Shown piece after piece: positions 1-20,485 of a DNA stretch of 28,506 nucleotides. The position numbers were made by a program, and so were the translations under genes. Source of the stretch: a virus; the IMG/VR virus record IMGVR_UViG_3300000101_006892, positions 4,856 through 33,361 of that record, one strand, 5' to 3'. Position 1 is the first letter of the stretch. Every line of letters starts with the position of its first letter. The notes beneath the pieces are model-generated. The model was not told the DNA's origin. It saw only the letters and a list, made by a program, of their open reading frames with translations, and made no database searches.

Positions 1-411
1 TATGATGGTGTAATTATTGAAAGAAATATTCCACTTACATCTATGTGTTCACACCACCACCAAACAATTGGAGGTGTAGTTCATATTGGTTATATTGCTG
101 GTGAAAATGGACAAGTAATTGGTTTATCTAAACTAAATCGAATTGTTGAACTATTTGGCCGCCGTGGTGCAATCCAAGAACAATTAACCTCAGCGATTCA
201 TAATGCAGTAGATAAAATTACAGCTGAAAACAAGGGTGTAATTGTTACTATTGTAGGTACTCATAATTGTGTATCTTGTCGAGGTGTTAAACACCAGGGA
301 GCTGCTATGATTACTACTAAAGCATCAGGTGCATTTAGAGATGATACAAATCAAGCACGTAAAGAGTTTTTTGACAGTTTAAAAATTAATAACGGGGGGC
401 ACAATATATAA
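1..411 (+). CDS. folE: GTP cyclohydrolase I (FolE), 3' part only
   Basis: The reading frame is open from base 1, so the gene starts before the window; the ATG at 43 is internal. The visible 136 residues are the catalytic C-terminal part of type I GTP cyclohydrolase, which converts GTP to dihydroneopterin triphosphate. The zinc site is intact: a CSHH motif just after base 43 and the THNC motif further on match the family's Cys-His and His-Cys ligands. The segments VHIGY, GLSKLNRIVE and GAFRDD are also typical. In phages this enzyme usually feeds folate or 7-deazaguanine (preQ0-type) synthesis; which one applies here depends on genes upstream of the window. Its stop codon overlaps the next gene's ATG (TAATG), so the two are probably translationally coupled. 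Confidence 0.93.
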   Translation, partial: YDGVIIERNIPLTSMCSHHHQTIGGVVHIGYIAGENGQVIGLSKLNRIVELFGRRGAIQEQLTSAIHNAVDKITAENKGVIVTIVGTHNCVSCRGVKHQGAAMITTKASGAFRDDTNQARKEFFDSLKINNGGHNI

Positions 412-803
412 TGATTACATTAGAAAATAAAATTATACTGAGTTGGGATGATGTTAATAAGTTAGTAGACATACTATGTGAAAAAATAACTCATGACCTT
501 CCTAATATAGATTCAGTACATGGAATCCCTCGAGGAGGATTAATTCCATCTACCCTTGTAAGTCATAAATTAAACTTACCATATTCAAATGTAATATTAC
601 CTAACACTTTGGTAATAGATGATATTTGTGATTCGGGTGTTACAATTAGAGATAGTATAGGAGTTAATACTGCTACTCTATACTACAAACCAAATGAAGT
701 AGCCAAACCAACCATATTTGCAGAAGAAATAATTACCAGTAAATGGGTTATTTTTCCTTGGGAACAACCTGAAGCACCCATGGTACAAAATTATTTACAA
801 TGA
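411..803 (+). CDS. Type I phosphoribosyltransferase-like protein
   Basis: This 130-residue protein carries the PRPP-binding signature of type I phosphoribosyltransferases, LVIDDICDSGVT at about residues 67-78, preceded by a pyrophosphate-loop-like segment GIPRGG (about 38-43). The C-terminal VIFPWE resembles xanthine-guanine phosphoribosyltransferase (Gpt). Such enzymes join a purine base to PRPP to make a nucleotide; the base cannot be told from sequence. At 130 residues it is somewhat shorter than typical Gpt (about 150), with a reduced hood region. It begins inside the stop codon of folE and ends overlapping the next small gene by ATGA, so the three form one transcription unit. The placement suggests purine salvage or supply of a modified base. 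Confidence 0.82.
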   Translation: MITLENKIILSWDDVNKLVDILCEKITHDLPNIDSVHGIPRGGLIPSTLVSHKLNLPYSNVILPNTLVIDDICDSGVTIRDSIGVNTATLYYKPNEVAKPTIFAEEIITSKWVIFPWEQPEAPMVQNYLQ

Positions 804-970
804 GATTAGGAGATATCGTTGAGAGGTTAATTTTCTTTATTACATTGGGGCAAGGAAAAAAAATTGCAACTTATATCGCTAAATTAAGAGGTAAAGAAGA
901 TTGTGGTTGTGACCGTAGACAAGAAAAATTAAATAATTTAACAAAACCAAAACCAACACCAAAAATTTAA
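800..970 (+). CDS. Small cysteine-containing phage protein, 56 residues
   Basis: The ATG at 800 overlaps the TGA of the phosphoribosyltransferase gene (ATGA), and the frame runs to TAA at 970. The product has a mildly hydrophobic stretch, VERLIFFITLG (about residues 7-17), a central KEDCGCDRRQEKLN segment with a CxC pair, and a Lys/Pro-rich tail. Small proteins with a CGC..R...LN core are, as I recall, common in tailed phages, but I cannot name a function. The CxC pair could bind a metal, though two cysteines alone are weak evidence. Its reality rests on the overlap-type start, the tight packing and the motif. Confidence 0.7.
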   Translation: MRLGDIVERLIFFITLGQGKKIATYIAKLRGKEDCGCDRRQEKLNNLTKPKPTPKI

Positions 971-972
971 TT

Positions 973-1170
973 ATGGAATATTGGCAAGTAAAAACCATTA
1001 CAGAATTTGAAAACGAAAAAGGTCGTATTCAAAAAACAACAGAATTGTATCTTACAGTAGCAATATCAGCTACAGATGCAGAAGCTAAAATGTATAAACA
1101 TAATGAGGGTTTATCTAATTTTAGAGTAGTAGAAGTTAAGAAAACTAAAATCTTAGATGTTATTCAATAA
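973..1170 (+). CDS. DUF4494-like small protein
   Basis: This 65-residue protein starts WQVKTI, continues with a KGRIQKTTELYL segment, then ISATDAEAKM, and ends with VVEVKKTKILDVI. The order (W.vK, a Lys-rich turn, TE.YL, a TEAEA-type segment, then a basic strand KK.KI) matches my recollection of the Bacteroidota family DUF4494. Function is unknown. It is likely a small alpha/beta protein with no membrane segment. Its stop overlaps the ATG of the next gene (TAATG), so it is probably co-translated with the MazG-like enzyme. It has no Shine-Dalgarno sequence; the start context is AATTATG. The family link is one of the pointers to a Bacteroidota host. Confidence 0.72.
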   Translation: MEYWQVKTITEFENEKGRIQKTTELYLTVAISATDAEAKMYKHNEGLSNFRVVEVKKTKILDVIQ

Positions 1171-1751
1171 TGAAAAAACAACTATCACTATTTGAAGATC
1201 TCGAACCGGCAATGGACCCAAGCACTGGATTAAGTGTTGATGTTCCTTTTGTTAACGAAGTAGAAACTTTTAACGCAACATTTGGTAAACCAAACAATTA
1301 TGAACCGACTATCCCAGAAGAAAAAGAATGGAAGTTTGTTTACGACTTCATCCTTGAAGAACTCGAAGAATATAGAGAAGCTTGCGAAAACGGAGATATC
1401 GTGGAAGTTCTGGATGCTTTGTGCGACATTGCTTATGTTTCCCTTGGGAACGGTACTATGCTACATGGCCTTAAAGATAAGATATGGCCCGCATATCAAG
1501 AGGTACAAGCTAGTAATATGTCAAAAGCTTGTACAACTGAAGAAGAAGCCATACAGAGTGTCAGCCAAAGAAGTAAGGAACAAGGTGAGGCCTGTCATTT
1601 TGAGAAGATCGAGGAGGGAAGGTATATTGTCTATCGTACCAGAGACAGAAAAGTAATGAAATCTATCAATTATTTTAGACCAGACTTACATCAGTTCTTT
1701 AATGCTGAAGATATTCAAAGAACAAAACCACAACAACATGTAGGAATTTAA
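1170..1751 (+). CDS. MazG/PRA-PH-like nucleotide pyrophosphohydrolase
   Basis: This 193-residue protein has the all-alpha NTP pyrophosphohydrolase signature: an EExxE-type helix (EELEEYRE, residues 63-70) followed by EVLDALCDIAYV (79-90), supplying the acidic Mg2+ ligands E63, E64, E67, E79, D82 and D86. Enzymes of the MazG, dUTPase-2 and phosphoribosyl-ATP pyrophosphohydrolase superfamily cleave nucleoside triphosphates to monophosphate and pyrophosphate; here a role in clearing unwanted or modified nucleotides, or lowering alarmones, is plausible. Residues 1-30 are an extra N-terminal segment and about 125-193 form a C-terminal extension of unknown role. Bases 1381-1500 are about 45% G+C by hand count, well above the neighbours, which suggests separate acquisition. 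It overlaps both neighbours by one base. Confidence 0.83.
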   Translation: MKKQLSLFEDLEPAMDPSTGLSVDVPFVNEVETFNATFGKPNNYEPTIPEEKEWKFVYDFILEELEEYREACENGDIVEVLDALCDIAYVSLGNGTMLHGLKDKIWPAYQEVQASNMSKACTTEEEAIQSVSQRSKEQGEACHFEKIEEGRYIVYRTRDRKVMKSINYFRPDLHQFFNAEDIQRTKPQQHVGI

Positions 1752-3520
1752 TGTATAGAAAGTGCTATCAAGGTAAGAGAATAAAACACAATGTATATGA
1801 AATGCATTTATGGGAATCGGATGGTGAACACCAATCGATTGAATACTTAAATACTGCCTATCAACTTTGTGACGAAGATAAAGCAGAGGCATTTGGTTTA
1901 ACAGGAGAACCTGTTAGACAAATACAAAACTGGAGTTATTCTAAAAATGAAAAATACTCTATGAATAATACCCCTAATCTTTATTTTAATGATATGGGTA
2001 TAGTTCAAAAATTTCTAGTTGAAAAGTATGGTACTAATGATGAACCTTCAACAGGTCATCGTGAATTATATTTTGACATTGAATGTGAAATAGGGGGGGC
2101 TTTAACTGAAGACTATATTGAAACTGCTCCTATGACTATTACTTCAATTGCCTGGTGGGACAAATTAAAAGATCATTGGGCTATTTTAATTCTAGACAAA
2201 AAAGACCAGTTAAACTATACTGAAACAGGTGAAACCAAAAATAAAAAAATAATCCCAGTTAAAACTGAGTATGAGTTGTTAAAGGAATGGTTAAAACACT
2301 TCAAATCAATATCACCTGATATTTTAATTGGTTATAACAGTGATTTTTTTGATATCCCTTATTTATACTATAGAATGTGTAACGTATTGGGTAAAGAGGT
2401 AGCTGATCAAATGTCCCCTTTGTATGGTAAGGTAAATGAGCCTATTAAATCTAAACGATACTCAAAATATTTTTATTATAATGATCAAAAGGTAAAAATA
2501 ATGGGTATAGAGTCTTTAGATTATATGAGACTACACAGAAAGTATAGTTGGAAAGATGAACCATCTTGGAGGTTAGATGCCATTGGTGAAAAATATGTTG
2601 GGGTGAATAAAATTGAATATGAAGGAAACTTAGATCAATTATTTGCTACTGACATTCATAAATTTATTCAATATAATTTTCGTGATGTTGAAATTTTAAA
2701 ATTACTAGATGAAAAGTTAGATTATATAGCTTTAACTAAAAACATCTCCCATAAAGGAAAACATAATTATGAAGATATTTATTATAACAGCATTACTCAG
2801 GATGGAGCTATTTCTGCTTATCTTTTATCAAAAAATATCATCCCACCTAATAAAGAAAAAAACCCACGGAAGAAAGAAGGCTATGCCGGTGGTTGGTTAT
2901 TTTGTCCTACAGCTGGTTTGTATAAAAACATGTTTGATTTAGATTTAACATCGCTATATCCTTCAATTATTATGACGTTAAATATTGGTAAAGAGACATT
3001 AGTTGCGCGTATTATTGATGCTGATGACCGTAATAATAGACTTGGGTTAAGTGATCTTAAAGAAATGGATAGTGATAAGGAATTATTAGTCCATAATATG
3101 GTTAATAATACTCAAGAGATGAAACCCGTAAGTAAAATTATCTCTTCCATAGAAAATTACCAACTAACAATATCAGCTAATGGTTGTATGTTTAGAACAG
3201 ATAAAGAATCTACTTTATCAACTATCCTAAATAAATGGTTTCAACAACGTGTTGAGTTTAAGAGATTAATGAAGGATGCATATAAATCAGGTGATAAAGA
3301 AAAAGGTGCATATTATCACCTAATGCAATATACAATGAAAATTTTATTGAATAGTTTGTATGGTGCTACTGCTTTACCTAGTTTTAGATACGGTATGAAT
3401 TACGCCATAATTAGTGAAGCAATTACTTTATCTGGACACAGAATTATTCAAGAATCCGCTTTATGTGGGAATAGATATTTAAATAAAGTCTTAAGAAATG
3501 AAGTTAAATTAGAAATATGA
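1751..3520 (+). CDS. 43A: DNA polymerase family B, N-terminal piece (exonuclease, palm, fingers)
   Basis: This is the first of two pieces of a T4 gp43-like polymerase. The 3'-5' exonuclease motifs are intact: ExoI FDIECE (D109, E111), ExoII FFDIPYLYYR (D201), ExoIII YNFRD (Y308, D312). Polymerase motif A is DLTSLYPSII (from D398) and motif B is KILLNSLYG (K530, N534, G538). The frame stops at residue 589, after the helix that normally leads to motif C, so the piece lacks the second catalytic Asp pair and the thumb. The missing part is encoded at 4517-5461. Together the pieces make 903 residues, close to T4 gp43 (898), so little or nothing seems lost. The 3' end overlaps the cupin gene by ATGA. 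The symbol 43A follows usage for split T4-like polymerases. Confidence 0.95.
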   Translation: MYRKCYQGKRIKHNVYEMHLWESDGEHQSIEYLNTAYQLCDEDKAEAFGLTGEPVRQIQNWSYSKNEKYSMNNTPNLYFNDMGIVQKFLVEKYGTNDEPSTGHRELYFDIECEIGGALTEDYIETAPMTITSIAWWDKLKDHWAILILDKKDQLNYTETGETKNKKIIPVKTEYELLKEWLKHFKSISPDILIGYNSDFFDIPYLYYRMCNVLGKEVADQMSPLYGKVNEPIKSKRYSKYFYYNDQKVKIMGIESLDYMRLHRKYSWKDEPSWRLDAIGEKYVGVNKIEYEGNLDQLFATDIHKFIQYNFRDVEILKLLDEKLDYIALTKNISHKGKHNYEDIYYNSITQDGAISAYLLSKNIIPPNKEKNPRKKEGYAGGWLFCPTAGLYKNMFDLDLTSLYPSIIMTLNIGKETLVARIIDADDRNNRLGLSDLKEMDSDKELLVHNMVNNTQEMKPVSKIISSIENYQLTISANGCMFRTDKESTLSTILNKWFQQRVEFKRLMKDAYKSGDKEKGAYYHLMQYTMKILLNSLYGATALPSFRYGMNYAIISEAITLSGHRIIQESALCGNRYLNKVLRNEVKLEI

Positions 3521-3867
3521 AATACGAAGCAGAAACTAGACCTTGGGGGATGTTTGAAGTATTATTAGATGCTTCTGAATATAAAGTTAAACGTATTACT
3601 GTAGCCCCTGGGCATAGATTATCATACCAGTCTCATAAAAATAGACAAGAGCAATGGACTGTAATAAAAGGTAGATTAACAGTAATTTTAGATAACAAAC
3701 AATTAATTCTAGACCCAGGCGAATCAGTTCATATTCCATTAGGTGCAAAACATAGGGCATGGAATGAGACTGATGAGATAACCCAATTTATAGAAGTTCA
3801 AACTGGAACTTATTTTGGGGAAGATGATATCTTTAGGTACGAAGACGATTACGAACGAATACAATAA
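3517..3867 (+). CDS. Mannose-6-phosphate isomerase type II-like cupin
   Basis: This 116-residue single-domain cupin begins ETRPWGMFEVL, the signature of the C-terminal isomerase domain of bifunctional GDP-mannose pyrophosphorylase/phosphomannose isomerase. Metal ligands are visible: H40 in SYQSHKNR, E45 in RQEQW, and H79 in GAKHRAWN; the GES.HIP turn is also typical. In full-length enzymes the domain interconverts fructose 6-phosphate and mannose 6-phosphate; free-standing versions are common in phage and polysaccharide gene sets, where the substrate may be another sugar phosphate. The gene lies between the two polymerase pieces, overlapping the first by ATGA. It is intact, so this is not a decayed insertion. 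Its natural partners by function are the sugar genes at 11611-25192. Confidence 0.85.
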   Translation: MKYEAETRPWGMFEVLLDASEYKVKRITVAPGHRLSYQSHKNRQEQWTVIKGRLTVILDNKQLILDPGESVHIPLGAKHRAWNETDEITQFIEVQTGTYFGEDDIFRYEDDYERIQ

Positions 3868-3868
3868 T

Positions 3869-4129
3869 ATGGCATTAAAACCACAATCCATAAGAAATGG
3901 AGTTGAAATTCTCCTTGAGGGCCAAAAAACTACAAAGGCAGAAATAATAGCCTTAAGTGAAGAATGGAGTGAAGTCCAAGAAAACTTCTTTAAAAAAATG
4001 TTAAAACAAGGTGGGGAGTTTAAAGTAAAAGGTCGTAAATTTAAAGTAATCCCTGCTAATAGAATTACTAACTCTAACGGAGAAAAGGATAGTGGAGTAG
4101 TACAAATACCAGGTGATAGCCGATTTTAA
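3869..4129 (+). CDS. Hypothetical protein, 86 residues, between polymerase pieces
   Basis: I place the start at ATG 3869, one base after the cupin stop, rather than at an upstream start that would run deep into the cupin gene. The 86-residue product is charged, with a predicted helix from about 10 to 50 (SIRNG..., ALSEEWSEVQENFFKKMLKQ), a basic strand pair EFKVKGRKFKVIP, and a polar tail. There is no signal peptide, membrane segment or cysteine. I do not recognise the family. Its fixed position between polymerase halves and close spacing suggest co-transcription with them. Confidence 0.72.
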   Translation: MALKPQSIRNGVEILLEGQKTTKAEIIALSEEWSEVQENFFKKMLKQGGEFKVKGRKFKVIPANRITNSNGEKDSGVVQIPGDSRF

Positions 4130-4132
4130 ATT

Positions 4133-4516
4133 ATGAAAGTAGAAATATCAAACGGAGAGTTATTGGATAAAATATCCATTTTAGAGTTAAAATTACTAAA
4201 AATTAAAGATGAAGAAAAATTAATTAATGTTAAAAAAGAATTTGAAACTCTAAATCCTTTAGCCCAAGATTTATTTGAAAAATATGATGATCAACTCCAA
4301 AACCACTATCTTGAATTATCTAAAATTAATGGTCAACTTTGGGATATAGAAGATTGGATTAGAGATTGTGAACGGGAAAAGAGATTCGATAAAGAATTTA
4401 TAGAATTAGCTCGTTCTGTGTATATTACTAATGATAAAAGATGTGAAGTTAAAAAAATAATTAATATATTAACCTCCTCTGGTTTAACTGAAGAAAAAGG
4501 ATACCAACCATATTAA
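4133..4516 (+). CDS. DUF6165 family protein
   Basis: This 127-residue protein matches the DUF6165 pattern throughout: SNGELLDKISILELKL at the start, an alpha-helical middle with INGQLWDIEDWIR, then FIELARSVYITNDKR and a closing SSGLTEEKGYQPY. It looks full-length. Function is unknown; as I recall, members are often found near glycosyltransferase genes in bacteria and phages, which suggests a role in glycan synthesis. Here it is the last of three genes separating the polymerase pieces, and its TAA is followed directly by the ATG of the C-terminal polymerase piece. A second glycan-linked gene in this gap, with the cupin, suggests the gap was filled from the phage's own sugar gene pool. Confidence 0.85.
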   Translation: MKVEISNGELLDKISILELKLLKIKDEEKLINVKKEFETLNPLAQDLFEKYDDQLQNHYLELSKINGQLWDIEDWIRDCEREKRFDKEFIELARSVYITNDKRCEVKKIINILTSSGLTEEKGYQPY

Positions 4517-5461
4517 ATGAAACAATTAATAGATACCATACCATGGTTTATTTGTGATAAGGATGATAAAAATCTTTGTACTTACGTAGATACTGATTCT
4601 AATTATTTCTCAGCCTACCCTATTTTAAAATATAAGTACCCAGAAATTGATAATATGGATCCTAAAGAGATAGACAACCTTACTGAATCCATTGGAAAGA
4701 AGATGCAGGATGTTTTAAATAATTTCTATGAAAAAGAATTAGCACCTAAAACCTTTAATATAGGGGATAGAAAAAATTTTTTAGAAATGAAAACAGAATG
4801 TGTTATTAGATCTGGATATTTTAGAAATACTAGGCGTTACGCCCAATGGATTACTAAATCAGAAGGTATTGAAGAAGAATCTCTAGACATTAAAGGCCTA
4901 GAGTTTATGAAAGCAAACTTCCCTCCTATTTTAGGAAAGTTTTTTAACAAAATTCTTAAAGAGGTATTAAAAGGAGAAGAACATCAAAATATTATTAACC
5001 AAATAAAGGTGTTTAAATCTCAAATATTAAAAGATATTTCTATTTATGAGTTAGGTAACCCAACAGCAGTTAAAAAATTAGAAAAATATACTGGTACATC
5101 TGCAAGGGCGGGTGAAATGTTTACTCAAATTGAAAAGGGTGCTCCTGCTCCCGTTCGAGCAGCTATTAAATATAATGATTTATTAAAATTCTGGAAGTTA
5201 GATAAACAGTTTAATTTAATTACCCAAGCTGATAAGGTTAAATGGATTTATTTAAAAGATAACCCATATAAAATAGAAGCATTAGCCTTTATGACATCAG
5301 ATGTTCCCCCAAAAATTGAAGATTTCTTAAACCAGTATGCTGACCGCAAAAAAGTATTTGAAAGTATTTTATTAAATAAATTAGAAGGATTTTTTAGTGA
5401 TTTAGGTTGGTCTTTAAGTTTGAATCCTTACCTAGATAAGGTTAAAACATTTGTTATTTAA
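4517..5461 (+). CDS. 43B: DNA polymerase family B, C-terminal piece (palm motif C, thumb)
   Basis: The 314-residue protein opens with about 20 residues and then the catalytic motif C, TYVDTDSNYF (D25, D27), which supplies the second metal-binding Asp of family B polymerases. The segment MKTECVIRSGYFRNTRRYA fits the conserved KxY/KKRY region, and the remainder has thumb-like helices. The C-terminal PYLDKVKTFVI could be the clamp-binding tail, by analogy with T4 gp43. It cannot work alone, since motifs A and B and the exonuclease lie on the piece at 1751-3520; the two must associate. The start is ATG immediately after the previous stop. The first residues show no intein-type Cys/Ser/Thr junction, so protein trans-splicing is unlikely. 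Confidence 0.93.
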   Translation: MKQLIDTIPWFICDKDDKNLCTYVDTDSNYFSAYPILKYKYPEIDNMDPKEIDNLTESIGKKMQDVLNNFYEKELAPKTFNIGDRKNFLEMKTECVIRSGYFRNTRRYAQWITKSEGIEEESLDIKGLEFMKANFPPILGKFFNKILKEVLKGEEHQNIINQIKVFKSQILKDISIYELGNPTAVKKLEKYTGTSARAGEMFTQIEKGAPAPVRAAIKYNDLLKFWKLDKQFNLITQADKVKWIYLKDNPYKIEALAFMTSDVPPKIEDFLNQYADRKKVFESILLNKLEGFFSDLGWSLSLNPYLDKVKTFVI

Positions 5462-5485: not shown

Positions 5486-6202
5486 ATGATAAATAAAAAC
5501 ACATTACAGTCTGTAATTTCCAAATACTACCTGGGTGGTATATTTAACCAAGTTAAATGGAGGATTAAAGATAATACCTTAACTATATATGCTGGTTCTG
5601 CTGGTAAAGCAGCTAAGGTTTATTTAAAAAACTTTCAATTTGAAGATGGTGAATTGGGTATTTTTAACACCCACCAATTAATTAGATTGTTAGCTATTAC
5701 TAAAGGTGAACTAGTATTTGATGTTGAAAAAACAAATAAAGTATTTACTAAACTTAAAATATCAGATTATAATTTTGATGTAAATTACTCTTTAGCAGAT
5801 ATATTTGTAATACCAACTGCTACCTACTATGATGAAATAGAAAATTACATTGCTAAATTTGAATTAGACTCAGAAGCAATTGAAGCCCTAATTAAAGCTA
5901 AATCGGCATTGTCCGAACAAAGTGAATTGCTTGTAAAAACTAACACTAATTTAGATGGAGATAGAGTATGTGAGCTTATATTTGGTGACCTTGAAGGTTT
6001 TTCAAATAAAGTAACATACACATTAAATGGTGAAATCAAGGGTGATATTGAATTCCCACTTAATTCAGATACGTTAAAAGATGTCTTTTCTGCTAATAAG
6101 GATATGGAAAGAGGCATCATGAAAATATCAGAATGGCATATACAATTAAACTTCTACTCAGATGAAATAGAAAGTGAATATTTTATAGCAAGAAATGAAT
6201 AA
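5486..6202 (+). CDS. 45: T4 gp45-like DNA polymerase sliding clamp
   Basis: The 238-residue product has the length (T4 gp45 is 228) and segment order of phage sliding clamps: INKNTLQSVISKYY, a first strand set with IKDNTLTIYAG, a GELGIFNTHQLIRLLAI segment matching the family's 'lgifdl..fL..l', and a second domain starting near 125 with LDSEAIEALIKAKSAL and ending ESEYFIARNE. Clamps form a ring around DNA and hold the polymerase on its template; the ring is loaded by the gp44/gp62-like proteins encoded at 9412-10962. The assignment rests on pattern and position directly after polymerase rather than on invariant residues, as clamps have few. It has its own candidate promoter and is followed by a terminator. 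Confidence 0.82.
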   Translation: MINKNTLQSVISKYYLGGIFNQVKWRIKDNTLTIYAGSAGKAAKVYLKNFQFEDGELGIFNTHQLIRLLAITKGELVFDVEKTNKVFTKLKISDYNFDVNYSLADIFVIPTATYYDEIENYIAKFELDSEAIEALIKAKSALSEQSELLVKTNTNLDGDRVCELIFGDLEGFSNKVTYTLNGEIKGDIEFPLNSDTLKDVFSANKDMERGIMKISEWHIQLNFYSDEIESEYFIARNE

Positions 6203-6297: not shown

Positions 6298-6708
6298 ATG
6301 AATACATTTTACACCGAACGTAATCCGTTCGACATTTTAGTAAGGAATTTTTTCCAAGACGCAGGAGCTTACAGACCTCTTACAGAATCCAAATTACCCC
6401 ACCCTTTAGATATTTACGAAAGAGACAACGGTCTAGGACTAGACATAGCTTGTACCGGGATCTCTAAAGAAGATATCGAAATTCTTATCGAGGGTAATAT
6501 AATCAGAGTAAATTACGATAAACCAAAAGAAGAAGATTTAGGTGAATATATCCATAAAGGTATCGCTAAAAGATCTTTTAATTTAGGTTGGAAGATTGAT
6601 AGTAGATATGATCTATCAAAATCAACAGCCGAATTTAAAAACGGACTGTTACAGATTATTATACCTTTTGCTAAAGGATCAGAGCCAAAAACTTTGAAAA
6701 TTAGCTAA
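6298..6708 (+). CDS. hsp20: Small heat shock protein (Hsp20/alpha-crystallin family)
   Basis: The 136-residue product starts with a short variable N-terminus (NPFDILVRNFF, typical of the family), then an alpha-crystallin domain from about residue 36: PLDIYERDNG, DIACTGISKEDIEILIEGN, the AKRSFNLGWKID strand, and the closing GLLQIIIPFAKG, followed by a C-terminal KTLKIS tail resembling the IxI oligomer anchor. Such proteins are ATP-independent holdases. Genes of this type are well known in T4-like cyanophages. Bases 6361-6480 are about 43% G+C by hand count, higher than the flanks. Its terminator lies at 6723-6747, so it may be a single-gene unit ahead of the groES-groEL unit. Confidence 0.93.
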   Translation: MNTFYTERNPFDILVRNFFQDAGAYRPLTESKLPHPLDIYERDNGLGLDIACTGISKEDIEILIEGNIIRVNYDKPKEEDLGEYIHKGIAKRSFNLGWKIDSRYDLSKSTAEFKNGLLQIIIPFAKGSEPKTLKIS

Positions 6709-6722
6709 AAAGTTTTATTAAA

Positions 6723-6747
6723 AAATGTGTCCTAGCACATTTGTTTT
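6723..6747 (+). terminator. Putative terminator after hsp20
   Basis: AAATGTG (6723-6729) pairs with CACATTT (6736-6742) across a six-base loop, followed by GTTTT. The 7-bp stem is A+T-rich and the T tract short and interrupted, so termination may be partial. A candidate promoter for the next gene begins immediately after it. Confidence 0.5.
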
Positions 6748-6761
6748 CGTATATTCCGGTT
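6748..6761 (+). promoter_or_regulatory. Second copy of the CGTATATTCC leaderless promoter element
   Basis: CGTATATTCC (6748-6757) is identical to the element before the clamp gene and stands at the same distance from its ATG (four bases). TATATT at 6750-6755 as a -10 would put the transcription start on the A of ATG 6762. There is no TTG at the usual -35 distance here; the shared part is only the -10 region and flanks, as might be expected for a phage-specific sigma factor or activator. It would drive the unit 6762-8969 (groES-groEL). Confidence 0.45.
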
Positions 6762-7057
6762 ATGAAGAAATTTAAAGGTATACAAACAATCAAAGACCCA
6801 GTTCTCGAACCTTATTTTATTACTAAGGACGAGCATGGCTACACTCTCAAAGAACTAATTCAACCCAATTCTGGCCATTTTAGAACACAGGGGGAAGGAA
6901 AGTCTTATGAAAAATCACTGTCTTATTATCCAAAACTTGAAATGGTATTAGAACGAATATCTCGTTTAAAAATGGATAGTAAAGATTATAATTCATTAAC
7001 CGAATATATTAGTGAGTTCAAATTAATAAATAATAATTTAATTAAGTTTTTAGAAGT

Positions 7058-7061
<4 letters not shown>
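6762..7061 (+). CDS. Conserved phage protein of unknown function, 99 residues
   Basis: The start is ATG 6762, directly after the CGTATATTCC element; an upstream in-frame TTG would run through that element. The product begins MKKFKGIQTIKDPVLEPYFI, then has a TKDEHGYTLKELIQPN segment, GHFRTQGEGKSYEK, and a helical second half (KLEMVLERISRLK, YNSLTEYISEFKLI). I recall similar DP.LEPYFI..D..GYT proteins in marine T4-like phages, but no function. There is no membrane segment, signal peptide or cysteine. Its stop overlaps the groES start by ATGA, so it is co-expressed with the chaperonins. Confidence 0.75.
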
Positions 7062-8969
<1,908 letters not shown>

Positions 8970-9172: not shown

Positions 9173-9425
9173 CATAACTGAAACCACCACTTTAATCGCT
9201 CGGAGGGTACCTCCGGGCGATAAATGGAGGTTAGTTGCTAATGAACCTGATGGTAAAGTACATACTACTTTAACTGATACCTTAGAAGCCTACATGGTAA
9301 AAACAGGATTTAAAGGTGAATACCGACTTGCCCCCTTAAAAAGTGAGTTGTATATTATCACTACAACAGAAGAAATAATTGAACCAGAACCAGAAAGAAA
9401 ATTTTCACTATATGGTGAGTACTAG
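9156..9425 (+). CDS. Hypothetical protein, 89 residues, GTG start
   Basis: No ATG exists early in this frame; the first plausible start is GTG 9156, inside the end of the Hc1 gene. The product has ITETTTLIARRVPPGDKWRLV, then LTDTLEAYMVKTGFKGEYRLAPLKSELYII, and an acidic Pro/Glu tail ending SLYGEY. The alternating strands and helix suggest a small alpha/beta fold; I do not recognise a family. It fits exactly between Hc1 and the clamp loader with short overlaps at both ends, which supports it being real. Codons for residues 14-22 (LIARRVPPG) form the striking hairpin at 9195-9221, so the peptide there may be constrained by an RNA or DNA structure. Confidence 0.65.
   Translation: MSQKINITETTTLIARRVPPGDKWRLVANEPDGKVHTTLTDTLEAYMVKTGFKGEYRLAPLKSELYIITTTEEIIEPEPERKFSLYGEY
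9195..9221 (+). promoter_or_regulatory. 12-bp G+C-rich hairpin inside a coding region
   Basis: ATCGCTCGGAGG (9195-9206) pairs with CCTCCGGGCGAT (9210-9221) at all 12 positions in RNA (one U-G wobble), closing a three-base GTA loop. It is exceptionally stable for this A+T-rich region. It starts 22 bases after the Hc1 stop and lies about 190 bases ahead of the clamp-loader start. No T run follows, so it is not a simple terminator. Possible roles: mRNA 3'-end protection for the groEL-Hc1 message, a translational operator, or a DNA palindrome bound by a protein. Confidence 0.6.
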
Positions 9426-10323
9426 GGAAAACACATTACTTAATGAACGATATCGTCCTGATAATTTAGACAACTATGTTGGTAATGCTAATCTAAAATC
9501 TGCTTTAGCCAAACAGTTATCACAAAATGATATTCAAAATTATTTATTTTATGGGCCCGCGGGTACAGGTAAAACTACACTTGCTAAATTAATTATCCAT
9601 AACTTAGACTGTGATTCTTTATACATTAATGCCTCAGATGAACGAGGTATAGAAACCATTAGGGATAAAGTAACTGGATTTGCTTCTGTGGCCTCTATGA
9701 AACTACTTAAAGTGGTTATTTTAGATGAAGCAGATTTTTTAACAATTCAAGCACAAGCTTCTTTAAGGAACGTTATTGAGACATTTTCACGCACTACACG
9801 TTTTATACTTACTTGCAACTTTGTAGAGCGCATTATTGACCCTATTCAATCAAGATGTCAAACGTTTAAAATCATCCCTCCTACTAAAAAAGAAGTAGCC
9901 ATTCACATAGCGGGAATATGTGATAAAGAAAATATAGGTTATGAAATACCAATATTAGGGAATTTGGTAAATAAGCATTATCCTGATATTAGAAAGATGC
10001 TTAACACCTTACAGTCTAGTATTATAGACGGGAAAGTAGAGTTAGATGATAGCTTACTAGTATCTTCCAATTACATGAATGGCGTGCTTGAAGCGTTAAA
10101 ATCCAGTGACTTTAAACAAGTTAGACAAATTATAGCTGATTCTGGGGTAGAGGATTATGATGAATTGTTTCGTTTCTTATATGACAATTCTTCTGATTAC
10201 CTCCCAGGTAAAGAAGGTACAGCTGCTATTATAATTAATGAGCACTTATATAAAGCTAATTTCCGAATAGACAAAGAGATAAACTTAATGTCTTTAATTC
10301 AAAATTTAATAAATAATAAATAA
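9412..10323 (+). CDS. 44: T4 gp44-like clamp loader ATPase (large subunit)
   Basis: I choose ATG 9412, giving MVSTRENTLLNERYRPDNLDNYVG, the usual RFC-type opening; a longer start at 9379 would lie deep in the previous gene. The 303-residue AAA+ ATPase has Walker A GPAGTGKTT (48-56), Walker B VVILDEAD (101-108), sensor 1 ILTCNF (N136), and the SRC arginine finger (147-149). It belongs to the RFC small subunit/gp44 family, which with gp62 opens the sliding clamp and loads it on primed DNA. T4 gp44 is 319 residues. The gp62-like partner lies at 10552-10962, separated by one small gene, unlike T4 where 44 and 62 adjoin. Confidence 0.93.
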   Translation: MVSTRENTLLNERYRPDNLDNYVGNANLKSALAKQLSQNDIQNYLFYGPAGTGKTTLAKLIIHNLDCDSLYINASDERGIETIRDKVTGFASVASMKLLKVVILDEADFLTIQAQASLRNVIETFSRTTRFILTCNFVERIIDPIQSRCQTFKIIPPTKKEVAIHIAGICDKENIGYEIPILGNLVNKHYPDIRKMLNTLQSSIIDGKVELDDSLLVSSNYMNGVLEALKSSDFKQVRQIIADSGVEDYDELFRFLYDNSSDYLPGKEGTAAIIINEHLYKANFRIDKEINLMSLIQNLINNK

Positions 10324-13590: not shown

Positions 13591-13785
13591 ATGCCAACAA
13601 AAGACATGACACTAACGAGTGTCAAAATTAAATCCGAACTATTTGAGAATTTTAAGATTGAATGCGTAAAACGTAAATTTTCTTTCCAAAAACTTGCAGA
13701 CCGAGCTATTTTTTTGTATCTTACGGACGAAGATTTTAGAAAACAAATTAACAATCAAACAAATCTCGAATTAAATGGAGAGTAA
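13591..13785 (+). CDS. Ribbon-helix-helix (Arc/CopG-like) DNA-binding protein
   Basis: The 64-residue product has the RHH order: a short strand TLTSVKIKSE (about 7-16), helix A ELFENFKIECVKRK (16-29), a turn FSFQ, helix B KLADRAIFLYLTD (34-46), and a polar tail. RHH proteins dimerise through the strand and bind DNA as transcription regulators. This one probably regulates phage genes, perhaps its own promoter. Its last 11 bases overlap the following glycosyltransferase gene, so the two are co-transcribed. No toxin gene lies next to it, so an antitoxin role is unlikely. Confidence 0.75.
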   Translation: MPTKDMTLTSVKIKSELFENFKIECVKRKFSFQKLADRAIFLYLTDEDFRKQINNQTNLELNGE

Positions 13786-15214
13786 ATTTAAACACTTACC
13801 ACAAAATGAAAGAAAGAAAATTCTTTTAATTTGTGATGATATCCGAGTACATTCCGGGGTAGCTACAGTTGCTAATGAAATTGTTAGAGCAACAGCACAC
13901 CATTTTAACTGGGTTAACATTGGAGGAGCCATAAAACACCCGGATGCAGGAAAAATATTAGATGTAAGTGAATCACTCAATTCTGAAATAGGAATTAAGG
14001 ATTCTAATATTAAAATATACCCCACAAATGGTTATGGGGATGAAAATATCCTTAGACAGATTATTTCCCTTGAAAACCCTGATGCCATTATGCTTATTAC
14101 TGACCCACGTTATTTTATGTGGTTATTTAATATAGAACAGGAAATACGTAAAAATATTCCAATTAGTTATTTAAACATTTGGGATGATTACCCTGCTCCA
14201 ATGTACAATAAAACATATTATGAAGCATGTGATTTACTAATGGGTATTTCTAAACAAACCGTTAATATTAATAGAATTGTTTTAGGTGAAAAAGCCAATG
14301 ATCGTATTTTAAAATATGTTCCACATGGTTTAGACACCCAAATTTACAAACCTTTACCAGATAATGATGAAGGTTTAATTAAATTTAGAAAGGAATTCTT
14401 TAATAAAGAAAACCCTGAATTTGTATTGTTCTTTAATTCACGTAATATTCGTAGAAAACAAATCCCAGATACTATGTTAGCTTTTAGGGCTTTTTTAGAT
14501 AGTTTACCTAAAGAAAAAGCGGATAAATGTAAGATGGTTTTACATACGGAAGTTATTAGTGATGCAGGTACCGATCTTAGAAAAGTAAAAGAATATTTTT
14601 TTGATGGTTTGTATCCAAATGCCATTAGGTTTTCTACACAAAAGTTATCTAGAGAACAATTAAATTACCTTTATAATATAGCTGATGTTCAAATATTATT
14701 AACTTCTAATGAGGGTTGGGGTTTAACCATTACAGAAGCAATTTTAGCAGGTACTCCTATTATAGCTAATGTTACAGGAGGTATGCAAGATCAAATGAGA
14801 TTCGAAAATAATAAAGGAGATTGGTTTGTACCCTCCCCAGATATTCCTTCTAACCATAGGGGTACATATAAAACACATGGTGATTGGGCATTCCCCATTT
14901 ACCCTGCTACTAGATCAATTCAAGGTTCACCTCCTACTCCTTATATATTCGATGATAGGTGCCGTTGGGAAGATGCTACAGAACGTATTAAAGAACTTTA
15001 TAACTTAACTCGTGAAGAACGTAAGGCATTAGGTAAGCTAGGTAGTGAATGGGCTCGAGGAGATGAAGCAGGTTTCACTGCCTTTCACCAAGGTGAAAGA
15101 GTAATGGAGGCATTTACTGAATTATTTAATACTTGGACACCTAGAGAAAAATATGAGATTGTAAATGGAACTGAATATATAGGACCACAATTAAAACATA
15201 AAATTATTTATTAA
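13775..15214 (+). CDS. GT4-family glycosyltransferase
   Basis: This 479-residue protein is a GT-B fold enzyme. The N-terminal domain opens KILLICDDIRVHSGVATVA, the Gly-rich loop typical of GT4. The C-terminal domain has LYNIADVQILLTSNEGWG and the E-x7-E retaining motif (E313 and E321) in EGWGLTITEAILAGTP, followed by VTGGMQD. Such enzymes move a sugar from a nucleotide donor with retention. An insertion of about 45 residues after GGMQD (about 341-385, with DWAFPIYPATRS) is longer than usual. It overlaps the RHH gene and stops directly before the second GT4 gene, making a pair. Confidence 0.9.
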   Translation: MESKFKHLPQNERKKILLICDDIRVHSGVATVANEIVRATAHHFNWVNIGGAIKHPDAGKILDVSESLNSEIGIKDSNIKIYPTNGYGDENILRQIISLENPDAIMLITDPRYFMWLFNIEQEIRKNIPISYLNIWDDYPAPMYNKTYYEACDLLMGISKQTVNINRIVLGEKANDRILKYVPHGLDTQIYKPLPDNDEGLIKFRKEFFNKENPEFVLFFNSRNIRRKQIPDTMLAFRAFLDSLPKEKADKCKMVLHTEVISDAGTDLRKVKEYFFDGLYPNAIRFSTQKLSREQLNYLYNIADVQILLTSNEGWGLTITEAILAGTPIIANVTGGMQDQMRFENNKGDWFVPSPDIPSNHRGTYKTHGDWAFPIYPATRSIQGSPPTPYIFDDRCRWEDATERIKELYNLTREERKALGKLGSEWARGDEAGFTAFHQGERVMEAFTELFNTWTPREKYEIVNGTEYIGPQLKHKIIY

Positions 15215-16501
15215 ATGAATAAACCAGTTTTCGTAATTAGTAGCCCATTTGACACATATTCAGGTTATGGTGCTAGAGCAAGGGATGTAATTAAATCCAT
15301 CATTAGTTTAGATAAATATAATGTCAAATTAATACCTCAAAGGTGGGGAAATTGTGCTTGGAATTTTTGCTCTGATAACCCAGAATGGGAATATTTAAAT
15401 CAATATAAAATCCAACCCCAATTAAAAACCAAACCTGATGTTTTTATGCAGATTACTATACCTAATGAGTTTAACCCTGTAGGTAAGTATAATATAGGAG
15501 TAACAGCGGGTATTGAATCTACACTTTGTAAAGCAGAATGGATACAAGGGGTAAATAGAATGGATACTACATGGGTTTCATCTAACCATGCAAAAACAGT
15601 ATTTGAAAATAGTAAATTTACTGAAAATGATAAGCATGGTAATAAGATAGCAGAGATTTCATTAAATAAACCAGTTGAAGTAGTATTTGAAGGGGCTAAT
15701 TTAGATATTTACAAACCTGTTACAAAATCCGAAATTAAAACAATTACTTTAGATGAGGTTAAAGAATCATTTTGTTATTTGTTTGTAGGTCATTGGATGC
15801 CTGGTGAATTTGGGCATGATAGAAAAAACGTATCATTAATGGTTAAAGCCTTTTATGAAACATTTAAAAATATTAAGGGTCAAACACCTGCATTAATACT
15901 AAAGTCATCAACTGGTACTTCTTCTTATACTAGTAGAGAAACACTTCTAGATAGAATTAAACAAATCAGAGAAACAGTAAATAGTTCAAACTTACCTAAT
16001 GTTTATTTACTTAATGGTGAATTTTCAGATGGTGAAATGAACGAGTTATATAATAATTCTAAAGTAAAAGCTATGATTAGCTTAACTAAAGGAGAAGGAT
16101 TTGGAAGACCATTACTGGAATTTAGTCTTACCGGCAAACCTATTATTGCAAGTAATTGGTCAGGACACACAGATTTTTTAAAACCTAATTTAAGTGTAAT
16201 GTTAGGGGGGCAATTAGAAAATGTACACCCTAGTGCTGCTAATAATTGGTTAATTAAAGAAAGCCAATGGTTTAAAGTTAATGATATTGAAATTGGAAAA
16301 AGTTTAAAATCGGTATTTAAAAAGTATAAACAGTATATAGTTAAATCCAAACAGCAGAAACAATTCAGTAAAAGCAAATTTAGTTTTGAAGCCATGACTA
16401 ATCTTATATCTACCCAGTTAGATAAACTTCCTGAGTTTCCAAAACAAGTGGAACTTACTTTACCTAAACTTAATTTACCAAAATTAAAAAAAATTAATTA
16501 A
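15215..16501 (+). CDS. GT4-family glycosyltransferase, second copy
   Basis: The 428-residue product begins with SSPFDTYSGYGARARDV, a GT4-type N-terminal loop seen in many phage and cyanobacterial enzymes, and contains GVTAGIESTLCKAEWIQGVN, LLNGEFSDGEMNELYNNSKV and the E-x7-E motif GEGFGRPLLEFSLTG (E294, E302) followed by SNWSGHTDF. It is only distantly similar to the preceding enzyme, so the two probably add different sugars rather than being a recent duplication. The C-terminal 30 residues (LTLPKLNLPKLKKIN) are a basic/hydrophobic repeat of PKL units that could be an anchor or oligomer contact. TAATG-coupled to the next gene. Confidence 0.9.
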   Translation: MNKPVFVISSPFDTYSGYGARARDVIKSIISLDKYNVKLIPQRWGNCAWNFCSDNPEWEYLNQYKIQPQLKTKPDVFMQITIPNEFNPVGKYNIGVTAGIESTLCKAEWIQGVNRMDTTWVSSNHAKTVFENSKFTENDKHGNKIAEISLNKPVEVVFEGANLDIYKPVTKSEIKTITLDEVKESFCYLFVGHWMPGEFGHDRKNVSLMVKAFYETFKNIKGQTPALILKSSTGTSSYTSRETLLDRIKQIRETVNSSNLPNVYLLNGEFSDGEMNELYNNSKVKAMISLTKGEGFGRPLLEFSLTGKPIIASNWSGHTDFLKPNLSVMLGGQLENVHPSAANNWLIKESQWFKVNDIEIGKSLKSVFKKYKQYIVKSKQQKQFSKSKFSFEAMTNLISTQLDKLPEFPKQVELTLPKLNLPKLKKIN

Positions 16502-16938
16502 TGGCACACGATAATTTAAAAATTTGTACTAGATGTGGGTCTAACGCTTGTTATTCACAAGAGGTAACTAAAGATATTACTATTGAACTATGTTATGGTT
16601 GTGGTTTCCAATCCAATACTATAATGACCGTAGGCTCTGATTTATTTAATGAGCAGTTAGAATCATTACCTGAATTATATAAAGTATTAATGGATGAAGA
16701 AGAAAATGGTAAAACTTGGATGCCCTCATTCCATAATGTAGAAGGCAAAGGTATGGTATTTGCTAATGGTTCAGGTAGAGATAATTGGGTTTGGTCCGCG
16801 GTAAAATCTATCCCTGTACTAGAAGAGGAAAAAGAAAAATATAAAGGAGTTGAAACACGGGCAGATATGACTACCATAAAAAATTTCCCAGAAAAAGATT
16901 TTATGGATGCCCTTTCATATGTTAATTTAATACCATAA
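16501..16938 (+). CDS. Zinc-ribbon protein of unknown function in the glycan island
   Basis: The 145-residue product starts with a zinc-ribbon-like domain: cysteines at 9, 12 and 17, and 31 and 34 (CTRCGSNAC and CYGCG), spaced as in CxxC-x18-CxxC ribbons. After it comes LFNEQLESLPELYKVL, then a WMPSFHNVEGKGMVFANG segment and a conserved-looking NWVWSAVKSIPVLEEEK. I recall similar proteins in marine phages but no function. Being translationally coupled to the GT4 gene upstream and one base from the GlcNAc-transferase-like gene downstream, it may be an accessory of glycan assembly or simply lie between such genes. Confidence 0.75.
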   Translation: MAHDNLKICTRCGSNACYSQEVTKDITIELCYGCGFQSNTIMTVGSDLFNEQLESLPELYKVLMDEEENGKTWMPSFHNVEGKGMVFANGSGRDNWVWSAVKSIPVLEEEKEKYKGVETRADMTTIKNFPEKDFMDALSYVNLIP

Positions 16939-16939
16939 T

Positions 16940-18208
16940 ATGAATTTACTAGGGAAATTATTTAATTCAAATGAAAAAATATTTGTACAAATTGCTAGTT
17001 ATAGAGACCCTGAACTTATACCTACTATTAACAATCTAATAAAAAATGCAGACTCTCCAGAAAACCTAAAAATTTGTATTATTAATCAATGGCATAGTGA
17101 CGATAACATTGATTTATCTGAATGGAAAGATGATTCTAGATTTGAAATTTTATCTGTTAAATCTAAAGACTCTAAAGGAACTTGTTGGGCACGACATAAT
17201 TTAAACCAAAAGTATAATGGTGAAAAGTATACCCTTCAATTAGATTCACACCACCGCTTTATTAAAGGTTGGGATACTGAATTAAAAAATATGTTAAACG
17301 GGTTAATGCAAGATGGTGTTAAAAAACCCATACTTACTGCTTATGTCCCATCTTACGACCCAAGTAATGATCCTGAAGGGAGAATACTTACTCCGTGGCA
17401 ATTAAATTTTGATAAATTTACCCCTGAGGGAGCATTAATGACTTTACCCGCAATAATCCCTAATTATAAAAAATTAAAATCACCAATTAAAAGTAGATTC
17501 TTTTCAGGTCATTTTATGTTTACTTTAGGAAAATTTATTGAAGAGGTACCTTATGATCCTGATTTATATTTCCATGGTGAAGAAATTACAATGGCAGTGC
17601 GTGCTTTTACTAATGGGTGGGATTTATACACACCACATAAAGTAATTTTATTTCATGAATATACACGTGAAGGTAGAATTAAACATTGGGATGAACACGA
17701 TAGATGGTTTGAATTAGATAATTTATCACATGACAGGATGAGAAAAATCCTTGGGGTTGATGGTAATGTTTGCAGTCCCTGTTTAAAGAAAAGGATTGGG
17801 GTATACTATTTAGGTAATAAGAGATCTAAAGAAGATTATGAAAGATATTCGGGTGTTCATTTTTTAACTAAAGGTGTAACAGAATATACTCTTTCTCATA
17901 AACCACCCCCAAATCCCGAAATAAATTTAAAAAGGGAGTTTTTAAAACGTCAACCTTGGAAAGTTAAATTTCCTAAAGTATTTCTTGATAATCATTTGGA
18001 ATTTGAATTTTGGGCCATTATATTACTAGATGCCCAAGGTTCAGAAATTCATAGACAAGATTTAGATATGGGTACTATAAAATTGATACTTGAAAAACAT
18101 AACGATGAAATAGAAGTAAAGGGGTTTTATCGAGGTAGACCTTATACAAATTGGGTAGTTTGGCCTAATAATGGGGAATGGTTAAGAAAAATAGGGGGTG
18201 AAAAATGA
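16940..18208 (+). CDS. GlcNAc-transferase-like glycosyltransferase (PF11397 type)
   Basis: The 422-residue protein opens IFVQIASYRDPELIPTINNL and carries GTCWARHNL (80-88) and YTLQLDSHHRFIKGWD (97-112), the core of the GlcNAc-transferase family that includes the Skp1 hydroxyproline GlcNAc-transferase (GT60); LDSHHRF is that family's DxD-like metal site (D102). FFSGHFMFTLGKFIEEVPYDPDLYFHGEE follows, as in the family. The last 100 residues are a separate C-terminal beta-rich part (FEFWAIILLDAQGSEIHRQD). It may transfer GlcNAc or a related sugar to a protein, for example a phage structural protein; the acceptor is unknown. Overlaps the next gene by ATGA. Confidence 0.85.
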   Translation: MNLLGKLFNSNEKIFVQIASYRDPELIPTINNLIKNADSPENLKICIINQWHSDDNIDLSEWKDDSRFEILSVKSKDSKGTCWARHNLNQKYNGEKYTLQLDSHHRFIKGWDTELKNMLNGLMQDGVKKPILTAYVPSYDPSNDPEGRILTPWQLNFDKFTPEGALMTLPAIIPNYKKLKSPIKSRFFSGHFMFTLGKFIEEVPYDPDLYFHGEEITMAVRAFTNGWDLYTPHKVILFHEYTREGRIKHWDEHDRWFELDNLSHDRMRKILGVDGNVCSPCLKKRIGVYYLGNKRSKEDYERYSGVHFLTKGVTEYTLSHKPPPNPEINLKREFLKRQPWKVKFPKVFLDNHLEFEFWAIILLDAQGSEIHRQDLDMGTIKLILEKHNDEIEVKGFYRGRPYTNWVVWPNNGEWLRKIGGEK

Positions 18209-18828
18209 AAATAAGTTATGCAATAACAGTTTGTAATGAATTTGTAGAGATACAAAGATTAGTTACTGTGCTATTAGAAAATAAACGCTTAGAAGATGAA
18301 ATAGTTATTTTATTTGATTCTTCAAAAGAAGATCTATATATAGAAGATTATCTTAGAGCTAAATCAGTCAATGGAGCTTTCAGTTGGCACAAAGGTACAT
18401 TTGAAGGTCATTTTGCAGATTGGAAAAATAAATTAACAGAGTACTGTAAAGGAGATTACATCTTTCAAATAGATGCTGATGAGTTTCCACACAAATCTCT
18501 CATTACTGCACTACCTATTATACTAGAAGGCAATCCGGATAATGAGGTTTTTTTAGTACCTAGAGTTAATACAGTAGAAGGTATTACTGAAGCTCACATA
18601 GCTAAATGGCGATGGAATGTAAATAAGGACGGGTGGGTTAACTACCCTGACTACCAGTGGCGTATATGGAAGAATAAACCAGAGATTAAATGGAAGAATA
18701 AAGTACATGAAGTATTAGAAGGCTTTAAAACTTATGCTCCTCTTCCAGGTAAAGAGGAACTATCCCTATATCACCCAAAAGATATCAAACGTCAAGAGAG
18801 ACAAAATAATTATTACAACACATTATGA
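18205..18828 (+). CDS. GT2-family glycosyltransferase, short
   Basis: This 207-residue GT-A enzyme starts ISYAITVCNEFVEIQRLV, a typical GT2 opening, and contains DYIFQIDADEFP (D90 and D92 as the DxD metal site). The C-terminal half has WRWNVNKDGWVNYPDYQWRIWKN and KVHEVLEGF, which fits SunS/WaaE-like short GT2 proteins. It would be an inverting transferase. There is no membrane anchor. ATGA overlaps on both sides place it firmly in the operon between the GlcNAc-transferase-like gene and the aminotransferase. Confidence 0.88.
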   Translation: MKISYAITVCNEFVEIQRLVTVLLENKRLEDEIVILFDSSKEDLYIEDYLRAKSVNGAFSWHKGTFEGHFADWKNKLTEYCKGDYIFQIDADEFPHKSLITALPIILEGNPDNEVFLVPRVNTVEGITEAHIAKWRWNVNKDGWVNYPDYQWRIWKNKPEIKWKNKVHEVLEGFKTYAPLPGKEELSLYHPKDIKRQERQNNYYNTL

Positions 18829-20024
18829 AAAAAGAAATACCATTATTTAAAGTTTATATGTCCCCTTTTGCTAAACAAGCAGTTAATGAAGTACTAGATA
18901 GTGGGTTTATAGGAGAGGGACCTAAAGTAAAACAATTTGAATCTAATCTAAAAAATTATTTTAGAGCAAGTAATAATTACTATGATATTGTAACAGTAAA
19001 CTCAGCTACATCAGCAGAACATTTATTGTATTCTTACTTTAAGAAGGATAGAGAAATTGTTACTGAAGTGTTTGATGGGGTTGCTTTTACTACTAATAAA
19101 TGGGAAGCATTACAACCCGATGATGAGGTATTAACTACTGCATTAACCTGTACTGCTACTAATTGGCCTATTATTCATGAGGGTTTAAACCTTAGATGGG
19201 TTGATGTTGACCCACTAACTTGTAATATGTCTTTAGATTCGTTAGAGCAAGAGATTAACGAGAAAACTCGTATTATTACTGTAGTGCATTGGGGTGGAAA
19301 CCCAATTGATTTAGATAGATTAGAAAATATAGTTGTAAATGCTAAGAAAAAATATGGTAGAGAAATTATAGTTATCGAAGATTGTGCCCATTCCTTTGGT
19401 TCAATGTATAAAGGTAAAAGTGTAGGATTTACAGGCAATTACTCTACATTCAGTTTACAAGCAATCAAACATATTACTTCAGGTGATGGTGGGTTTATAG
19501 GAGTACCTTCTCAATCAGTTAGTAAAGATTTTAGAATTTTAAGATGGTATGGTATCGATAGAGAAGGGCCAAGAGCTGATTTTAGATGTGAAGCCGATGT
19601 GTTAGAAGCAGGGTATAAGTATCATATGAACGATTTATCAGCAGCTATCGGATTATCAAATTTAGCAGATGCAGACCATGTTATTAATACTAATAAATCA
19701 AATGGTAAATACTATGATAAAGAACTAGTTAATATTGACGGAATTACTATAATACCACAAGTAGAGGGAGCAGAATCCGCATATTGGCTATATACATTTC
19801 ATGCAGAAAGAAGAGATGATTTGATGAAACATTTAGATGAACATGGTATTAAATCTTCAAGAGTGCATGAACGAAATGATAAACATACTTGTACCATCCC
19901 TTATAGAACAGAACTACCAGGAGTAGACAAAGCAGTTAAAACTATGATTAGCATCCCAGTTGGATATTGGGTTACCCCTGAGGATAGAGAGTACATTATT
20001 AAATGCATAAAAAAAGGATGGTAA
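18825..20024 (+). CDS. DegT/DnrJ/EryC1/StrS-type sugar aminotransferase
   Basis: The 399-residue protein has the fold-type I PLP aminotransferase features of the sugar aminotransferase family: the VNSATSAEHLL phosphate-binding loop, EDCAHSFGS (D186 against the PLP ring nitrogen), and STFSLQAIKHITSGDGG with Lys215 as the Schiff-base lysine. Such enzymes convert a 4-keto or 3-keto nucleotide sugar to the amino sugar. An unusual stretch, about residues 70-98 (KKDREIVTEVFDGVAFTTNKW), widens the N-terminal region. With the acetyltransferase that follows it could make an N-acetylated amino sugar for the transferases of this island. The keto-sugar precursor might come from the SDR enzyme at 24344 or from the host. 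Confidence 0.92.
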   Translation: MKKEIPLFKVYMSPFAKQAVNEVLDSGFIGEGPKVKQFESNLKNYFRASNNYYDIVTVNSATSAEHLLYSYFKKDREIVTEVFDGVAFTTNKWEALQPDDEVLTTALTCTATNWPIIHEGLNLRWVDVDPLTCNMSLDSLEQEINEKTRIITVVHWGGNPIDLDRLENIVVNAKKKYGREIIVIEDCAHSFGSMYKGKSVGFTGNYSTFSLQAIKHITSGDGGFIGVPSQSVSKDFRILRWYGIDREGPRADFRCEADVLEAGYKYHMNDLSAAIGLSNLADADHVINTNKSNGKYYDKELVNIDGITIIPQVEGAESAYWLYTFHAERRDDLMKHLDEHGIKSSRVHERNDKHTCTIPYRTELPGVDKAVKTMISIPVGYWVTPEDREYIIKCIKKGW

Positions 20025-20064
20025 TAGATATAACCCCTTTATTATTTGTAACTATTAAGAAGCA

Positions 20065-20481: not shown

Positions 20482-20485
20482 TTTA

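Follow-up and report, generated by a model that had tools for sequence, protein, structure and literature searches.

Background

Can a replicative DNA polymerase be cut between the motifs that make up its active site and still serve as one enzyme? A replicative polymerase usually has a single catalytic chain, and the splits known so far resemble scars in a few phages. The question is raised by a stretch of 28,506 nucleotides of viral DNA (hereafter the window; bases 4856–33361 of the 33,361-base viral contig IMGVR_UViG_3300000101_006892 of IMG/VR), in which a family B DNA polymerase (PolB) lies on two genes with three other genes between them. Comparison with relatives, together with structural models, makes it very probable that the two chains are one replicative polymerase of the T4 gp43 type, assembled from two polypeptides that are not joined.

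Relatives were collected by scans of IMG/VR, which returned many at 55–76% identity to the window polymerase. Those having both parts of the enzyme were called split or fused according to whether the N- and C-terminal parts stand in one frame, giving clade totals of 244 distinct split pairs and 10 distinct fused sequences. Statistics on catalytic residues, on the ratio of nonsynonymous to synonymous substitution rates (dN/dS), and on the divergence of the two chains refer to 146 distinct full-length N/C pairs. The gene content of the gap was counted over 156 distinct loci, its packing over 133 gapped loci, and its evolution was followed on a tree of 83 representatives. AlphaFold models were built of single chains only, from 83-sequence alignments.

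A DNA polymerase encoded in two parts

Both open reading frames (ORFs) assigned to the polymerase in an initial annotation of the window were found on the plus strand, one coding for an N-terminal chain of 589 amino acids (1751–3520) and the other for a C-terminal chain of 314 amino acids (4517–5461). The N chain holds the exonuclease domain, motif A (D398 of FDLDLTSLYP), the fingers, and motif B (K530..NSLYG), and is matched in Pfam and PHROG profiles by the exonuclease and the N-terminal half of DNA_pol_B, while the C chain starts with a head (MKQLIDTIPWFICD), continues with motif C (YVDTDS; D25 and D27), palm strands, and thumb, and takes up the C-terminal half of the same profiles. Along the 856 positions of phrog_262, the N chain covers 23–569 and the C chain 565–842. 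When aligned with the structure of RB69 gp43, the N-chain model spans residues 4 to ~612–634 (Z 36.3, 520 residues aligned) and the C-chain model residues ~607–903 (Z 19.1, 280 residues aligned). The exonuclease motifs and then motifs A, B, and C thus follow in the order of a T4 gp43-type PolB, on an RB69 gp43 fold, across two chains. Since the coverage of the two chains is complementary in both profile and structure, the polymerase is complete and cut once, and the claim of the initial annotation that this is a complete family B DNA polymerase in two parts is supported.

Mapping of both pieces on gp43, which the initial annotation had proposed, places the cut at about residue 610 of RB69 and about residue 609 of T4. 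Alignment with fused relatives locates it in the loop joining the long palm helix after motif B to the motif C strand, a loop of only a few residues in T4 (NKVCGTNDEDFIAAGDTDS). Because the cut falls between the motif B helix and the motif C strand, the catalytic aspartates are divided over two chains, with D398 on the N chain and D25 and D27 on the C chain, as had been predicted. The N-chain model is confident except for residues 381–398, which form the motif A strand, and we read this low confidence as a palm sheet that may lack its partner strand from the C chain.

The cut ends themselves carry added sequence. In the window, the N chain ends with ..NKVLRNEVKLEI before its stop codon, an ending conserved in relatives. 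Split N chains in general carry an added short tail (..NKVLRNEIKLEI; RNEVKLEI in the window), and split C chains carry an added conserved head (MKHLEETPWWICD), in which P9 is invariant in all 146 pairs and W10, I12, and C13 are nearly so. From their sequence, these new conserved segments are compatible with a docking role.

Conservation of the split and phage lineage

An identical cut, always in this one loop, was found in 244 distinct relatives from IMG/VR samples and from contigs of metagenome-assembled genomes (MAGs). The catalytic residues of the exonuclease and of motifs A, B, and C are invariant (146 of 146 pairs), pairwise dN/dS has low medians (0.21 for the N chain and 0.16 for the C chain), and the divergence of the two chains is correlated across pairs (r 0.87), which indicates that both are under purifying selection. 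The initial annotation had allowed for another complete polymerase elsewhere in the genome, or for decay of the pieces in relatives, as outcomes that would speak against it; no second PolB was found in 10 of 10 long contigs of relatives, PolC was not found in these ten contigs either, PolA gave no match above the cut-off, and the catalytic residues are intact. Together, these comparisons indicate that the split has become fixed in a large, mostly uncultured, marine T4-like lineage, and that it is old and inherited, neither an accident nor a product of decay.

The initial annotation had mentioned split gp43 genes of some Aeromonas T4-like phages. The gp23 gene is absent from the window contig and present in five of ten long relatives, one of which (L303) has a gp23 that shares 59% identity with that of Flavobacterium phage immuto, 50% with that of Microcystis phage Mel-JY01, 48% with that of the huge phage LR756508, and 35% with that of RM378, the Far-T4 reference phage (PMC4360716). 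These identities of the relatives' gp23 point to a Far-T4-like lineage rather than to an Aeromonas T4-like phage, and, as some relatives' contigs belong to Flavobacteriaceae or Flavobacteriales MAGs, Bacteroidota hosts are likely for at least part of it.

Genes between the two halves

The 996 bases between the halves hold three intact non-polymerase genes, all on the plus strand: a cupin of the mannose-6-phosphate isomerase C-terminal type (3517–3867; PF01050, E 5.9e-30), a gene of 86 amino acids and unknown function (MALKPQSIRNGVEILLEG..FFKKMLKQGG..; 3869–4129) whose conserved start is the ATG at 3869 and not the TTG at 3815, and a gene for a DUF6165 protein (4133–4516; PF19662, E 6e-17). The initial annotation had likewise counted three genes in the gap, with the correction that the first gene reaches beyond it, its start overlapping the N-chain stop by 4 bases (ATGA at 3517). 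The start of the C chain immediately follows the DUF6165 stop, and the ATGA overlap of the cupin with the N chain makes the whole region one tight operon. The initial annotation had also seen neither homing endonuclease nor intron-like sequence here, in agreement with our searches, in which no intein or homing-endonuclease profile matched the window gap (Pfam, PHROG) and no intron or other RNA family from Rfam matched the window or six relatives.

Surveyed across relatives, the gap differs in its contents around one near-constant small gene. Among the 244 pairs, fewer than 30 bases separate the halves in 39, 30–199 in none, and 200–4,214 in 205, so that spacing runs from a 4-base ATGA overlap to a longest gap of 4,214 bases. 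ORFs fill a median of 99.7% of the gap, with a median 4-base overlap at both junctions. The 86-amino-acid gene of the window is the near-constant one; mostly 82–99 amino acids long, it occurs in the gap of 133 of the 156 loci and at no other place in the stretches that were fetched, was not found in nine long contigs with adjacent halves, and has no homologue in phage records. G031, a relative with a fused polymerase, has a homologue ~6.8 kb downstream of its polymerase gene (G031:C1 32711–32896), so the small gene is able to reside outside the junction. The changing genes include DUF6165 (64 loci), cupin (26), Smr-like (24), and cytidylyltransferase (17) genes and, more rarely, DegT aminotransferase, DAHP synthase-family, transaldolase, phosphomannomutase-like, epimerase, and GNAT genes, and a GIY-YIG endonuclease was seen in a single gap (L272). 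Apart from the near-constant gene, the cargo would, judged by its sequence matches, serve mostly sugar or surface metabolism. Turnover has been repeated, with at least 7 changes needed on the tree for the gap state, 13 for the cupin, and 10 for the cytidylyltransferase.

Comparison with other split polymerases

Split PolB is already known in kind, and what is new here is the position between catalytic motifs, the fixation across a lineage, and the junction as a hotspot for cargo. Split gp43 (43A/43B) is described for Aeromonas phages 25 and 44RR in PMC2988022 (citing Petrov et al. 2010), according to which the separator is untranslated in 44RR and holds a homing endonuclease in phage 25. The window matches neither type of separator, its gap being made up of three coupled genes, none of which matches an endonuclease profile. 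The Aeromonas phages (25 and 44RR; Ceceduovirus AS-zj, P19, and CC2) likewise have a gp43-type PolB on two adjacent genes, and in this respect they are the precedent that the initial annotation took them for. However, in P19, the Aeromonas case that was mapped, the cut falls elsewhere, at T4 ~518, which lies in the fingers, after motif A and before motif B, whereas that of the window falls between motifs B and C, and P19 has a 4-base overlap and no cargo, in contrast to the lineage-wide split with coding cargo seen here.

The archaeal PolB3 of Methanobacteriales, likened here by description only and not by sequence, is also a two-chain family B enzyme, and its cut, too, presumably leaves motif C on a different chain from motifs A and B. 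PolB3 on two chains is reported in PMC4104785 (citing Kelman 1999), where erratic intein excision is proposed as its source. A fractured PolB with split inteins is described for phage MIJ3 (PMC6892783) and for Nanoarchaeum equitans (cited in PMC4104785). As in the window, PolB is broken in these close to conserved motifs, and other DNA separates the parts, but intein halves are theirs only; the cut ends of the window lack them, so trans-splicing is not expected. RM378, a Far-T4-like phage, also has PolB on two genes (L308 21996–22937; L309 29587–31155), but its cut separates the exonuclease from the polymerase domain, the genes are ~57 kb apart, and all polymerase motifs are on one chain. Phages of OM43 with split DNA polymerases were set aside as a precedent, as the relevant passages of PMC10580990 relate them to Zobellviridae and do not name PolB. 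The text of the Far-T4 paper (PMC4360716) uses neither the word split nor gp43, and no publication describing the present split was found in the literature searched, which is not proof that there is none.

Origin of the cut

The nearest fused relatives (the L417 group, L315, and L316) pair with one split set (L472–L488) inside the split clade (support of 93–98 in the Shimodaira–Hasegawa-like approximate likelihood ratio test). One cut followed by re-fusion and two cuts in the same loop each need two changes on this tree. In the L417 group the loop is long (TGKDVYEIRTTPRQRYEECSSVVVYEDTDS), with a length corresponding to tail plus head, which favours re-fusion, whereas deeper fused outgroups have a short loop (LSTENKDYVVTSDTDS). 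In addition, the two split groups resemble each other in their N tails (..NKVLRGELKLEL before the stop) and in their C heads (PWWIC). From these sequence features, the fused group of 10 sequences was probably re-fused after a single cut. The alternative is that the L417 group retains the ancestral, fused form and that the loop was cut later, once or twice. Equal numbers of changes for the two histories speak for it, as does the tree in which all split rows are forced into one clade, where a single later cut is enough and which is only marginally rejected (p of 0.042 in the approximately unbiased test). The shared tails and heads, and a loop as long as a re-fusion scar would be, stand against it, and we regard it as possible though doubtful.

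Elsewhere, the same loop has been cut in freshwater cousins, and, judged from their placement in an otherwise fused Mel-like clade, this happened independently. There, L451 (with L452, of the same layout) has a gap of ~1.1 kb with a gene carrying four NUMOD3 motifs (E 6e-22), which are typical of homing endonucleases, and in L453 the gap gene resembles glycosyltransferase family 2 only weakly, below the cut-off (E 0.02). In LR756508 (L002 3301–11288), PolB is in two parts ~3 kb apart, cut near the same loop and with inteins at motifs B and C; its gap holds a cytidine deaminase-like ORF. A further relative, L202 (6001–10084), is by sequence a true fractured PolB gene with a split intein at motif C (Pfam Intein_splicing, E 7e-6) and an endonuclease-like ORF between the halves. 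The N chains of L451 (968–2746), L453 (4938–6767), and LR756508 (L002, to 6417) share a similar tail of ~45 residues (..ILRNGVL..KGSELLETDEI / VMRDGMKMKVKGKELQEEDELVI); an intein remnant was suspected by eye in these tails and was not retained, L451 having no Pfam intein match. These independent cases illustrate how splits of this kind come about, and the window clade may have begun either by such a mobile element or by a simple shift giving the ATGA overlap.

Assembly of the enzyme and alternative explanations

If the two chains are one polymerase, its palm and the metal site there, to which the N chain gives D398 and the C chain D25 and D27, would form only on their association. The chains would be made together by co-translation, assemble around the palm sheet, and be active without being joined. 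Cargo genes would enter and leave at the junction with ATGA start–stop coupling kept at both ends, so that halves and cargo would be read from one operon. The split gp43 of Aeromonas phage 25, whose chains co-purify and are active according to PMC2988022, offers a precedent. Several points weigh against this reading: every contig is metagenomic and the majority are fragments, the C chain modelled alone reaches only moderate confidence (predicted local distance difference test of 76), and one long relative, G017, has a weak, sub-cut-off PolA-like match in a 425-amino-acid ORF (G017:C1 81320–81664), which is possibly of the divPolA1 type (PMC11348598), as in immuto. A more far-reaching proposal, that the split is kept by selection with the heterodimer as a control point (through assembly, stoichiometry, or an exonuclease-only N chain), that the 86-amino-acid protein acts there, and that the lineage has gone through a full cycle of fission, cargo, and re-fusion, is speculative and rather unlikely.

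Splicing, either by a split intein in trans or of an intron in the transcript, would instead yield one protein, and parallels exist in distant relatives with inteins (split at motif C in L202; at motifs B and C in LR756508) and in the split intein of the phage MIJ3 PolB (PMC6892783). However, neither window chain has intein sequence or a Pfam intein match, no RNA family was matched, both pieces have a start and a stop of their own, the gap content varies freely, and 39 of the 244 relatives have fewer than 30 bases between the genes, many with the 4-base ATGA overlap, all of which makes splicing very unlikely. The pieces might also be decaying remnants in a genome replicated by another polymerase, since a change of polymerase appears to have taken place among close relatives (immuto has PolA at the corresponding place) and polymerase swapping is known in phages (PMC11348598). 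With both chains under purifying selection, every catalytic residue intact, and no other PolB, nor PolA or PolC above the cut-off, in the ten long contigs, we give this little credence. A fused protein made additionally by frameshifting or readthrough would be open to the part of the relatives with a stop–start ATGA overlap, where a shift of −1 would put both parts in one frame, but in the window and in 205 of the 244 relatives a distance of 200 bases or more, occupied by intact genes, separates the halves, and such a product is highly improbable. An assembly or sequencing artefact, which metagenomic contigs might invite, is negligible, given that 244 distinct sequences, taken from many IMG/VR samples and from MAG contigs, share the same break and that the gap genes are intact and coupled. 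A two-chain enzyme, assembled without joining, is the reading that we retain.

Gene neighbourhood

The replication module is intact in the window, with clamp loader genes downstream of the polymerase, among them the large subunit (9379–10323, plus strand; phrog_168, E 8e-80). The gene at 5486–6202 on the plus strand, which has no Pfam or PHROG match, is probably the sliding clamp by analogy of position, lying between PolB and clamp loader as in Mel-JY01. Between this presumed clamp and the clamp loader (6298–8969) are Hsp20 (6298–6708), GroES-like (7058–7363), and GroEL-like (7347–8969) genes, the last two named from a reading of their sequence and from synteny with immuto. In immuto (L305 37898–42237), the neighbour of GroES/GroEL is a family A polymerase, at the place that the split PolB occupies in the window lineage, and no PolB is annotated within the 150 kb read, an apparent swap from PolB to PolA. 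Further on in the window (13775–25192), glycosyltransferase, aminotransferase, and nucleotide-sugar genes form a large block, the make-up of which resembles that of a block in immuto.

Conclusions

These comparisons suggest that, across broad and diverse aquatic phages, the active site of a replicative polymerase is shared by two chains, and that the junction between them has become a hotspot for cargo with the enzyme retained. Surveys that use PolB as a marker gene, and annotation, can miss this lineage or count it twice. Fused sisters, independent freshwater cuts, and a probable re-fusion together provide a natural series for how essential genes split, stay split, and rejoin.

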